A stretch of DNA of 49,272 nt from contig NZ_KI913949.1 in NCBI RefSeq assembly GCF_000332095.2, forward strand, positions 1,421,101-1,470,372, read 5' to 3'. Positions 12,837 to 16,576 of this stretch are shown one piece after another. Origin of the DNA: Leptolyngbya sp. PCC 6406. GTDB lineage: Bacteria > Cyanobacteriota > Cyanobacteriia > Phormidesmidales > Phormidesmidaceae. Each line of letters starts with the position of its first letter. Position 1 is the stretch's first letter. The notes under the pieces are model-generated. The model made no database searches. It was not told the origin of the DNA and saw nothing but the letters and a program-made list of their open reading frames with translations. The translations under genes and the position numbers were made by a program.

Positions 12837-14867
12837 ATGTATCCCCATCCATGGGCCAAAACAACTAGATATGGATTGATCGTAGACCTGCCCTGGATGC
12901 TGGGTATGGCAGGTGCGATCGCGGCGGTGACCCTGACCCTACCAGCCCAGGGCGCGGTGCTGGAGAACTGGTCCTTTGACCCAGATAGTCGCCAACTGGT
13001 ACTGACCTTACCCAGCAACATCACCCCCACCTATTTCCTGCTGGCGGAACCCGCCCGCATCGTCCTGACAATTCCCAATACCCAACTGGGCAATGTCCCC
13101 CTATCGCGGTACTACAGCGGAGCCATTCGGGGGATTCGGGTTTCCCAGTTTGACGGCAACACCACCCGCATCGTGGTGGAACTGGCCCCCAACACCGTTT
13201 TAGATCCACGCCATGCAGAGTTATCTTCTACCAGCGTCCCCAGCGGAAATCGCTGGGTGTTGCGACCTTTAGTCGCGGATGCGGGAGCGACGGTGGCGAC
13301 GGCACCACCAACCGCGACCACGCCCATTCCGCCCCCCCCCGCCATTCCCAGTTCGACTCCCCCGACTCCGGTGTCGCCACCGCCTAGTGCCAGTCCTGGG
13401 CCAACTGCAATCGCCCCCTTGGGCGAGTCCGTGACCATCGCCCCAGATCCCACCCCATCCCCGGTGACAGTCCCTGACACCGCCAGTTCCATCACCCCTG
13501 ACCCGATCGAGATTCCCGTAATTCCCCCTGCGGCTGCTCCCCCGGTCACTGCCCCGGCAACGACCACACCCCCGACAGCGGCAGTTCCGCCCACAGCCCC
13601 TACCACTGTGGCTCCGGCTTCCCCGGAACGCCCTGCCAGTCCTAGCCCGGTCACGAGTACCCCAGCTCCGGCATCCAGTGGGGTTTCCCCAGCCCTGCCG
13701 GGACTGCCGGAAACAGGAACCGCTGTCGCCGTGGGTGCAGCACAGTCACCCATCGCCCCAGCCTACACCGCTGATGATGGCATCCGCACCGACGCCAGTG
13801 CCCTCTTGGGATCCGCCACTCCGATGGATCAGCCGCCGGAAGCGCTGCCCATTGCGCCCTTTGGCTCCTCGGGACAACCCATCGTAACGGTGCCAACCCT
13901 AGACAGCAGTGCCCCGCCATCCTCGAATCCCCCTCAGGTTGTGGTGCCGCCAATTTCAACCGTTCCCGTAGCTCCCGCAGCCCCGGTTCCGGCAACACCT
14001 CCCTCGGCAGTTCCAGCCCCGACATCCCCAATCCCCGAGCGCCCCTCCACGCTAGCGGTGCCGCCGCCAACGGCTCCCCCTGCCGTTGAACCTCTAACTT
14101 CGCCCCAGTCTCCAGTGAGACCCAGTCCTGCGGTGACCAGCGCCCCAGAATCTCCCCCGGCGTCCCCAGTGGCAGCTCCAGAGTTGGAGCCCTCACCCCC
14201 CGCATCACCAACGACCGTTGCCCCCCTATCTTCCTCGCCCCCCTTCCTGGAAGGGACTGGTACAACACCTCCAGCGCCGCCCCCCCGCCCCGCTCCGAGT
14301 GGGGATGCTACAGAGAACACCATTCCCTTTGGCGCACCCCTACCAAGTCAGGTACGTGTTGCCCCCGCCCCAGAGGCGGGACTAGAGGCGGGACTACCCT
14401 TGGGAACCCGTCTCCAGTTGCGCTACCCCGGCAGCAGCCCCCTAGTGCTAGATCGTCCCGATCCCTGGTATGAGGTTTTGATTGTGGCGGAGGATGTGCG
14501 CCATCCCACAACAGGAGTGGTGTTGGTCGCGGAGGGGACTCCGGTACTGGGGCGCTTTGAGGGCAATAATCGCCGGGGGCAGCGCTTTGTCTCCCAGGTG
14601 ATCTTGCAAGGAGACAATCGCGAACCCCTGTCTGCCACTTCTCCTACCCTACCGGGGACACCCCAGGGCGGCGGCAATCTACTCACCAATACGGGCATTG
14701 GGGCCGCTGCCATTACGGTCCTGTCTGGCTTTTCTGGGGTGGGACTGTTGGGGGGAGCCGTTCTAGGAGCCGCCACAGGCTACGCCACAGGCCCCCAAAT
14801 TGTGACGATTCAACCGGGTCAAATTATCGAAGCGGAGGTCATTGCCCCTTCACCTCCTGCCCCCTGA
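12837..14867 (+). CDS. AMIN-domain, proline-rich secreted or envelope protein
   Basis: 676 residues. A hydrophobic segment at about 18-39 ending in PAQGA looks like a signal peptide. Residues 40-125 form an AMIN domain (LENWSFDPDSRQLVLTLP, RIVLTIPN, GIRVSQF, TRIVVEL), a fold that targets proteins to septal or peptidoglycan sites and also occurs in PilQ. Residues 140-510 are a very low-complexity Pro/Ala/Thr/Ser linker that probably spans the cell wall. Residues 520-676 are a folded C-terminus with a glycine-rich hydrophobic stretch (about 615-650, GGAVLGAATGYATG) like a glycine zipper. A small internal duplication EAGLEAGL occurs at about 517. Function unknown; a cell-envelope role is inferred from AMIN. 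Its 3' end overlaps the convergent pheT-like gene by 49 bp. Confidence 0.8.
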   Translation: MYPHPWAKTTRYGLIVDLPWMLGMAGAIAAVTLTLPAQGAVLENWSFDPDSRQLVLTLPSNITPTYFLLAEPARIVLTIPNTQLGNVPLSRYYSGAIRGIRVSQFDGNTTRIVVELAPNTVLDPRHAELSSTSVPSGNRWVLRPLVADAGATVATAPPTATTPIPPPPAIPSSTPPTPVSPPPSASPGPTAIAPLGESVTIAPDPTPSPVTVPDTASSITPDPIEIPVIPPAAAPPVTAPATTTPPTAAVPPTAPTTVAPASPERPASPSPVTSTPAPASSGVSPALPGLPETGTAVAVGAAQSPIAPAYTADDGIRTDASALLGSATPMDQPPEALPIAPFGSSGQPIVTVPTLDSSAPPSSNPPQVVVPPISTVPVAPAAPVPATPPSAVPAPTSPIPERPSTLAVPPPTAPPAVEPLTSPQSPVRPSPAVTSAPESPPASPVAAPELEPSPPASPTTVAPLSSSPPFLEGTGTTPPAPPPRPAPSGDATENTIPFGAPLPSQVRVAPAPEAGLEAGLPLGTRLQLRYPGSSPLVLDRPDPWYEVLIVAEDVRHPTTGVVLVAEGTPVLGRFEGNNRRGQRFVSQVILQGDNREPLSATSPTLPGTPQGGGNLLTNTGIGAAAITVLSGFSGVGLLGGAVLGAATGYATGPQIVTIQPGQIIEAEVIAPSPPAP

Positions 14868-16576
14868 GCCGCCGTCATGATGGCGGAGCAGTCCAATTCC
14901 CCTGCACACACGGGCTCGGGGAAGGAAAAGTGCTGAAGCACACGGGGATGGATTTCGCCAAACTGTCCAGCAGGCTGGTCCCCGATCCACACCGTCGCCG
15001 CCCGCCCCGGTAAGTAGTAGGGAGCACGGCATTCCGTCAGGCTATAGGACACCCCCAATGCCTTTAGCAGCGTCTGCACATAGGACTTGGCACCACTGAA
15101 GGCGGCACGGGCATCGAGGCTGGCAAAGCCCCAATACAGGGTTTCAGTGATGGTAGGCAGGGACTCAGGATTCACATCGGTAGGACTAGGAAGGTGCAAT
15201 GGCCCCTTTGGGTCTGTCCTTGACCATCGCAATTGCAGCACCTCACCCGTTTCATAGATATTGATGGGCTTGGGAGCGTTGATATTGCGAGAGAGAATCT
15301 CCAGCAGCCCCGCTTGCAGGGTGGTGCGGGTGGTACTGAAGCTGCGGCTTTTAGCATTGCCAATCTGCACCGGGTTGCTCACTCCCCCCGGATTCTCGGT
15401 ATCTGCAAACAGCGCCATCAGTTCCGGGTCCGTGAGGATAAAGCTTTTCACCTCCATCAGCCCCATGCGCTGGGCTAAATCCCCCACCTGAGCCACAAAC
15501 CCCTTCAGGACATCGGCCTTTCCTGTATAGAACTGGACAGCGGTGGGGTCAGGACGCATCGTGTCGATACCGATGGCCACTAACAGATCCCCTGCTAGGT
15601 CCACTTGACTCAAAATGTCGGTGCGGTAGGTGGGCACCAGCACCACATCCGTTCCAGTGGGATGCAAGTCCATACGCGACAGGTATTTCCCTAGGGCATG
15701 TTTGGGAATGGCACTGCCCATGATCTCATTCAAATATTTGGCGGAAAAGGGGACGGCCTTGGGGGTGAGGCTGGGGGTGACTTGGCTGGTTTCCTCGGTA
15801 CGGACGACTACGGTTTTGACCACTGCTCCCGTATCCAGGAAGTTGTGGGCCAGGATATTAAGGGTATCCAGAACGGTCTGGGGCTGAATCCCGGTCACGT
15901 CGATCAGCAGGTTTTGCGTGTCGGCGCTCACCTGTCCTGGTCCTGCTCCGTTGATGATGGGGGGCATGGATAGGACGGTGCTGGTCTCGTCCCGCAACAC
16001 GGGGACGAGATTCCCCGATGGCAGGGTATGGCGATAGAGCCGTCCGGCGGGATGGTCCGCCAGGATTTGGCGGGCGGTCATGGGCTGGTGGCCCTGGAGG
16101 GGAATGAAAGACAATTCATCCTGATGCAGGGCGGTGTAGTAGAGATCTCCGGTGACCTGATCTAGGTCGTAAACCCCAATGGCAATCTTCTTGCGCTGAC
16201 GGCCAAAGGTTTGGGTCACCTTTTCCTGGAACTGGATCAGCACCTCTAGCCCGCCCGCTTGCAGGGAGGCGTTTTCCACGACTAGGGCGGCGATGTGGGG
16301 TCGCAGGGGGGTGACGTTAGCCGAAACGTGGAGGGTGCGACCCGAGGGACCAAGATCATCCGTCAGGTTGCGGGGCTGCCCATTGTAGATGTTGATAGCC
16401 CGCGTAAAGCCTTCGGCAGCTAGTAGGTCGGGCCGCTCCGCCGTCACCTCCACCTCTAACCCCTGATTGTGGAGGGTGGCGTCGAGGCCATAGTCAAAGG
16501 CTTGTTGGGCCAACTGTTGGGGAGGGGTCTGGGTCAGTCGTTGCAGGTAGGCCAGGGGAAAGGTGACGGTGGGCAT
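14819..16576 (-). CDS. Archaeal-type phenylalanyl-tRNA synthetase beta subunit (PheT-like)
   Basis: 585 residues, the size of archaeal/eukaryotic/spirochete PheT, not the roughly 800-residue bacterial form that cyanobacteria normally use. The N-terminus lacks the tRNA-binding EMAP-like B2 domain of bacterial PheT. The B3/B4 editing region carries VEVTAERPDLLAAEGFTRAI, IAIGVYDLDQV, and VLSMPPIING with DTQNLLIDVTG. The B5 domain is around 280-350 (VPTYRTDILSQVDLAGDLLV); the usual acidic pair of the archaeal VDxIEDV segment reads VDLAGDL here. The C-terminal catalytic-like domain ends in FGEIHPRVLQHF. No pheS is adjacent. It may be a functional second PheRS subunit, an editing paralogue or a resistance-type duplicate; the sequence does not decide. 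The last 15 or so residues overlap the AMIN gene. Confidence 0.85.
   Translation of the reverse strand: MPTVTFPLAYLQRLTQTPPQQLAQQAFDYGLDATLHNQGLEVEVTAERPDLLAAEGFTRAINIYNGQPRNLTDDLGPSGRTLHVSANVTPLRPHIAALVVENASLQAGGLEVLIQFQEKVTQTFGRQRKKIAIGVYDLDQVTGDLYYTALHQDELSFIPLQGHQPMTARQILADHPAGRLYRHTLPSGNLVPVLRDETSTVLSMPPIINGAGPGQVSADTQNLLIDVTGIQPQTVLDTLNILAHNFLDTGAVVKTVVVRTEETSQVTPSLTPKAVPFSAKYLNEIMGSAIPKHALGKYLSRMDLHPTGTDVVLVPTYRTDILSQVDLAGDLLVAIGIDTMRPDPTAVQFYTGKADVLKGFVAQVGDLAQRMGLMEVKSFILTDPELMALFADTENPGGVSNPVQIGNAKSRSFSTTRTTLQAGLLEILSRNINAPKPINIYETGEVLQLRWSRTDPKGPLHLPSPTDVNPESLPTITETLYWGFASLDARAAFSGAKSYVQTLLKALGVSYSLTECRAPYYLPGRAATVWIGDQPAGQFGEIHPRVLQHFSFPEPVCAGELDCSAIMTAAQGAGGEGAMTSASII

Follow-up and report, generated by a model that had tools for sequence, protein, structure and literature searches.

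The pheT gene and its product

The DNA analysed here, called the window throughout, is a stretch of 49,272 nucleotides from Leptolyngbya sp. PCC 6406 (C1:1421101-1470372). On its minus strand, positions 14819-16576 hold a single ATG-started open reading frame (ORF) that encodes a 585-residue archaeal-type PheT, the beta subunit of phenylalanine--tRNA ligase (PheRS), as assigned by TIGR00471, Pfam and an AlphaFold2 model. A preliminary description of this DNA had named the gene an archaeal-type PheT on the strength of its length and of the order of four motifs, all of which occur in the translation (VTAERPDLLAAEGFTRAI, GVYDLDQV, LSMPPIIN and FGEIHP). Model searches agree with that assignment: the protein scores 326.8 bits against the archaeal PheT model TIGR00471 (cut-off 282.65; model positions 1-551), whereas it reaches 110.3 bits against the bacterial model TIGR00472, under the cut-off of 402.65.

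Two Pfam domains score above their cut-offs, the B5 domain (residues 276-336, positions 15569-15751, minus strand as for all parts of the gene; PF03484, 39.9 bits, cut-off 28.6) and the catalytic-like module B6-B7 (CLM; residues 360-562, 14891-15499; PF17759, 113.1 bits, cut-off 22.4), which is expected to contact PheS. Two more are matched beneath cut-off: a B1-like segment (residues 38-66, 16379-16465; PF18262, 21.6 bits, cut-off 26.8) and the B3/4 editing domain (residues 117-238, 15863-16228; PF03483, 24.9 bits, cut-off 29.3), also aligned with Pyrococcus horikoshii PheT. The same scan, taken to an E value of 1, gave no EMAP II-like B2 domain, no C-terminal B8 domain and no further domain. 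In sequence, the protein is closest among solved chains to P. horikoshii PheT (E 2.1e-45) and to the human cytosolic beta subunit (E 1.9e-40).

The AlphaFold2 model of the window PheT has a mean predicted local distance difference test score (pLDDT) of 90.1 and a predicted template modelling score of 0.63. It superposes on the P. horikoshii PheT fragment 2cxi with Z 42.2 and a root-mean-square deviation (rmsd) of 1.6 Å over 334 residues (30% identity), and on human cytosolic beta (3l4g_B) with Z 39.4 and an rmsd of 6.6 Å over 536 residues (25% identity), an alignment that takes in human beta residues 1-567. The protein thus resembles the archaeal and eukaryal cytosolic beta subunits in length, domain order, fold, editing asparagine and lack of the extra bacterial domains, but differs from them at the sequence level, including a glycine at position 329 that is found throughout the sampled cyanobacterial clade. 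The window PheT also has a C-terminal tail past the conserved end. At its 3' end the gene overlaps the end of a convergent 676-aa ORF (12837-14867, plus strand) by 49 bases (14819-14867).

Genes for two PheRS enzymes in one genome

PCC 6406 encodes the subunits of two PheRS enzymes, one bacterial and one archaeal-type. The whole-genome search that the preliminary description had suggested (5.78 Mb, 3 contigs) gave two PheT and two PheS matches. Those of PheS, at C1:5286874 and C1:2258584, both fall outside the window, so that pheT indeed has no pheS neighbour there. An archaeal-type PheS of 501 residues is nonetheless encoded on the same contig, about 0.82 Mb from the window pheT, and passes the cut-off of NF003210 (392.7 bits; cut-off 350); the gene is therefore not the stand-alone pheT it had been taken for. 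The second PheS is bacterial (335 residues; TIGR00468, 361.2 bits). The bacterial PheT of this genome scores 731.9 bits with TIGR00472 and merely 91.5 with TIGR00471. It shares the B5 and CLM core with the window PheT, the same models being matched in both, but is a protein of 810-828 residues with extra bacterial parts.

The predicted model of the archaeal-type PheS is weak (pLDDT 61.1); its first Foldseek match is human alpha (3l4g_C), with a template modelling score of 0.26 only. Just a few bases upstream of the archaeal-type pheS of PCC 6406 there is a DUF760 gene on the same strand (L081:8070-8414, minus). Upstream of the latter, again on the strand of pheS, is a 1825-aa polyketide synthase piece (L081:8526-14000) with acyltransferase, KR, carrier, sulfotransferase and hydrolase domains.

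Distribution and co-occurrence of the subunits

TIGR00471 was searched across 388 Cyanobacteriia genomes. An archaeal-type PheT is present in at least 35 of them, 32 above cut-off. The three others are of the same kind and score beneath it (G008, 255.2 bits; G386, 222.4; G371, 210.7), the last two on short contigs. Among the matches listed, no other genome gave an E value lower than 8.7e-30, which is the level reached by bacterial PheT, and 10 of the 388 had no match. The gene is thus a second PheT in a minority of genomes and not the only, vertically inherited PheT of the phylum, which bears out its description as unusual in cyanobacteria.

We then compared the 35 carriers with 20 non-carriers of our choice for the presence of PheS. 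The archaeal-type PheS accompanies PheT in 34/35 carriers and is found in 0/20 non-carriers, two of which gave partial matches of 22-23 bits. In 10 genomes a stop seemed to fall inside PheS; as these frames run open over 484-544 aa, it was read as the terminal one. Bacterial PheS is present in 35/35 carriers. For bacterial PheT the carriers were joined by the genome of Chamaesiphon polymorphus, in which the archaeal-type pair is broken (see below): it is complete in 32 of these 36 genomes, partial in three drafts (G338, G377 and G214) and not found in one (G371, a 910-contig draft in which bacterial PheS is present). Besides its complete bacterial PheT, G240 has on a different contig a further PheT-like match of the bacterial type, split into three pieces (G240:C66:41408-43189).

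A peptide-pattern scan of named species genomes returned 33 loci, 30 cyanobacterial and 3 archaeal. The cyanobacterial ones, of which one is in Nodosilinea nodulosa PCC 7104, belong to records under the names Nodosilinea, Leptolyngbya, Phormidium and Chamaesiphon, among others. The patterns were drawn from the cyanobacterial alignment, and distant bacterial carriers may escape them. None of 72,556 plasmid and 50,697 phage records had a match covering 80% of the window PheT; 10 and 2 records, respectively, gave weak partial matches (21-27% identity), some annotated PheT. In viral contigs, none of the 21 pattern-matching stretches encodes a relative.

The two archaeal-type genes are adjacent in 5/35 carriers (G042, G308, G214, G173 and G240) and in the broken Chamaesiphon pair, and apart in PCC 6406; adjacency is probably the older gene order. 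Gene families common to at least four neighbourhoods resemble local synteny among related genomes, and two shared neighbour families are broader (examples of 1261 and 1019 aa). Individual neighbours include, in G308, a gene for a Trm1-type tRNA methyltransferase (L102:4026-5129, plus) that precedes pheS-pheT by about 40 bases, and an AIPR-family gene (PF10592) directly downstream of the archaeal-type pheS in G008 (L070:2680-4542, minus). G173 has an EF-G-like gene divergent from the pair (L103:4038-6125, minus) and a Glu/Leu/Phe/Val dehydrogenase gene downstream of the pair (L103:10128-11405, plus).

History and selection

In a PheT phylogeny, an analysis that the preliminary description had also proposed, 16 cyanobacterial proteins form one side of a branch and 46 archaeal proteins the other, with an SH-aLRT (Shimodaira-Hasegawa-like approximate likelihood ratio test) support of 100. 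The archaeal rows are matches obtained as loci in the phyla of a Hecatellales genome (61 genomes) and of a Micrarchaeota genome (30 genomes). The tree was built without Euryarchaeota, Asgard archaea, spirochaetes and eukaryotes. The gene had been proposed to be a horizontally acquired replacement: acquisition is upheld by a lineage foreign to most cyanobacteria, while replacement is contradicted by the bacterial pair, which is still encoded.

Distances between archaeal-type PheTs closely follow those between the cognate PheS proteins (r 0.954, 16 genomes, Mantel p 0.0002); their correlation with bacterial PheT distances is 0.869 in 16 genomes. The ratio of nonsynonymous to synonymous substitution rates (dN/dS), computed with our own Nei-Gojobori script over 66 pairs from 12 related genomes, has a median of 0.10 in PheT and of 0.09 in PheS. 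Purifying selection acts on both genes among these relatives.

The archaeal-type genes of G042 are 69% identical to those of PCC 6406, whereas the bacterial PheTs are only 61% identical, and in a joint tree G042 stands beside the branch of PCC 6406. Forcing G042 together with the two rows of group f24 was rejected (approximately unbiased test, p-AU 0.014); holding the f1 rows together without G042 was not (p-AU 0.086). The two constraint groups were defined only after inspection of an earlier tree. The archaeal-type genes of G042 were probably acquired by lateral transfer among cyanobacteria. When mapped onto a tree of the bacterial PheTs from 30 genomes (17 carriers and 13 non-carriers picked by us), carriage requires 8 changes, against a mean of about 10 after shuffling; a value as low was obtained in 58/500 shuffles, and carriage is thus not clearly clustered on this tree.

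Active-site residues and the B5 acidic cluster

The editing asparagine of P. horikoshii PheT, Asn217, corresponds to N209 of the window PheT (codon 15950-15952; alignment, residues counted by hand) and is conserved in 35/35 cyanobacterial and 46/46 archaeal rows; the excerpt of PMC3275996 describes Asn217 as an editing-site residue. Two further positions correspond by numbering to P. horikoshii S211 and L202: S203 is serine in 34/35 cyanobacterial rows, and L194 is leucine in all 35, as against only 26/46 archaeal rows. The archaeal-type PheS of PCC 6406 is highly conserved across its catalytic part and has N, Y and F at the equivalents of human alpha Asn410, Tyr412 and Phe438 (alignment, hand-counted), residues whose roles are given in the same excerpt. 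The bacterial PheT of this genome keeps its VTN and PLHAF stretches, which we take, with the residue numbers in PMC3275996 as a guide, to be the place of the bacterial editing residues.

The preliminary description had remarked that the B5 acidic cluster departs from the archaeal pattern, and the alignment locates this departure at residue 329. D320, D326 and D330 are retained, whereas at residue 329 (codon 15590-15592) all 36 cyanobacterial rows have glycine and all 46 archaeal rows an acidic residue (E in 42, D in 4), a regularity of these archaeal rows that lies outside any curated definition. We presume that residues of the acidic cluster bind magnesium at the alpha-beta contact.

The tRNA-Phe substrate

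At least 45 tRNA matches were found in PCC 6406 (150 scored of 182 candidates). ARAGORN, run on the 44 loci that contain them, identified two tRNA-Phe genes, identical to each other. Of the archaeal determinants, their product has A73, the GAA anticodon and the C13-G22 pair; position 20 is U (positions counted by hand). Table 1 of PMC9976931, as excerpted, lists G20 for archaeal PheRS and U20 for bacteria. A dedicated second tRNA-Phe was looked for and not found among the scored PCC 6406 candidates. A pattern search of 45 genomes gave a match in 33 of the 36 carriers, none being found in G386, G359 and G042, and all zero-mismatch matches have U20; a two-mismatch match in G308 is unlike tRNA-Phe. 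The archaeal-type enzyme, if it works, thus works on a bacterial-type tRNA. In two genomes we observed a second tRNA-Phe-like anticodon arm with one mismatch and an altered upstream side (G264:C1:5036464-5036490 and G275:C367:27574-27600).

Discussion

The match to the archaeal model, the beta-subunit fold, the presence of a PheS partner, the co-occurrence and co-divergence of the two subunits, their low dN/dS and the kept residues lead us to conclude, with a probability of roughly 0.8, that the product of the window gene is the beta subunit of an additional PheRS, archaeal in type and functional, beside the bacterial one; assembly, activity and use of a shared tRNA are inferred. The window PheT and the 501-residue PheS would form an (alpha-beta)2 enzyme in the archaeal/eukaryal style. 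Phenylalanine would be activated in the alpha active site and charged onto the ordinary tRNA-Phe(GAA) in parallel with the resident bacterial PheRS, and Tyr-tRNA-Phe would be hydrolysed in the B3/4 site of the window PheT. The acquisition would be an old one: Cyanobacteria may have gained the pheS-pheT pair from an archaeal-type lineage on one or a few occasions. Vertical inheritance would since have predominated, accompanied by losses and probably by one or more additional lateral transfers, and the two genes would have separated in several lineages.

Several observations weigh against this conclusion. The cyanobacterial clade has lost one of the acidic residues that the archaeal rows share. 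Since the tRNA-Phe copies carry U20 in place of the archaeal determinant G20, charging could be weak. G341 (86% complete) gave no archaeal-type PheS match. The PheT tree was made by a quick method, with warnings of long archaeal branches and uneven residue composition, and the Mantel test ignores the tree. Both genes are truncated in Chamaesiphon polymorphus (L176), where PheS ends after about 372 residues and PheT after 399, so that the archaeal-type pair is dispensable in this organism. The PheS stop falls just past a stretch that we take to be motif 2.

Other accounts of the gene concern either its identity or its role. The preliminary description had raised the idea of a free-standing editing factor, in which PheT alone would clear mischarged tRNA; the conserved editing asparagine and the distance between pheT and pheS in PCC 6406 would suit it. 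We regard it as very improbable, given that 34/35 carriers have the PheS partner, whose catalytic part is highly conserved and which is under purifying selection, and that the bacterial PheT of PCC 6406 keeps its VTN and PLHAF stretches. A replacement in progress, or a functionless relic, would account for the broken Chamaesiphon pair and for the draft G371 and its missing bacterial PheT match. It is unlikely in view of the low dN/dS, the co-divergence of the subunits and the whole or partial bacterial PheT in 35/36 carriers. Clearance of meta-Tyr was also considered as a role. According to the excerpt of PMC3275996, bacterial PheRS clears meta-Tyr from tRNA-Phe and human cytosolic PheRS is reported not to; this role is disfavoured because of the behaviour of the human enzyme.

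Why a second working PheRS would be retained is a matter for more tentative proposals. It might be a tolerance isozyme, in line with the immunity-type paralogue raised in the preliminary description, and go on working where a compound or condition, for instance a compound made by the cell itself or by its neighbours, impairs bacterial PheRS; this would be a role for the same enzyme and not another identity. Such a role is possible because the phenylalanine pocket is of the archaeal/eukaryal kind, unlike the bacterial one (PMC3275996, excerpt). An occasional benefit would fit the patchiness of the pair, its presence alongside the bacterial enzyme and its decay in one lineage, and in PCC 6406 pheS lies behind the DUF760 gene and the polyketide synthase piece. 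However, no polyketide synthase or similar gene was noticed among the families in at least four neighbourhoods (rarer families are unlisted and shared ones not individually annotated), and a literature search on PheRS self-resistance gave no PheRS case at the level of titles and abstract beginnings. We offer this role as our preferred guess, possible but doubtful. A conditional back-up isozyme, used under stress or nutrient limitation like the second threonyl-tRNA synthetase (ThrRS) of Anabaena, has that cyanobacterial precedent (PMC4787780, excerpt) and the purifying selection in its favour; with no clear regulatory motif common to pheS and pheT in a by-eye comparison of their upstream sequences, we consider it rather doubtful.

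Two known systems offer a comparison. The spirochaetes Spirochaeta, Borrelia and Treponema have an archaeal-type PheRS in place of the bacterial one, according to the excerpt of PMC3191353; some spirochaetes are the bacteria in which this type was known. The likeness is that an archaeal-type alpha and beta pair entered bacteria; the difference is that the bacterial enzyme was replaced there, whereas both are encoded here. Anabaena likewise has two enzymes for one amino acid, the ThrRS T1 and T2, but there the amino acid is another, the pair predates the diversification of the phylum and use is zinc-dependent (PMC4787780, excerpt). The divergence between the bacterial and the archaeal/eukaryal type of PheRS is placed at the separation of Bacteria and Archaea (PMC3275996, excerpt). 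The literature searched gave no prior account of an archaeal-type PheRS in Cyanobacteria, cyanobacterial synthetase surveys being outside that coverage, and its novelty is therefore provisional.

A more far-reaching and speculative picture, which we think has only a modest chance of being right, is that in a minority of Cyanobacteria two PheRS from different domains of life share one U20 tRNA-Phe pool, the archaeal-type one having been re-tuned for that tRNA, rebuilt at its acidic cluster (Gly329) and retained for its insensitivity to some natural attack on the bacterial enzyme. The occurrence of both PheRS types together, the second patchy and under purifying selection, raises the question of what retains a seemingly redundant essential enzyme. 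In these cyanobacteria an archaeal-type PheRS would also be seen to work, in nature, with a tRNA of the bacterial type, and the tolerance role, if true, would suggest that there are natural compounds that target bacterial PheRS.

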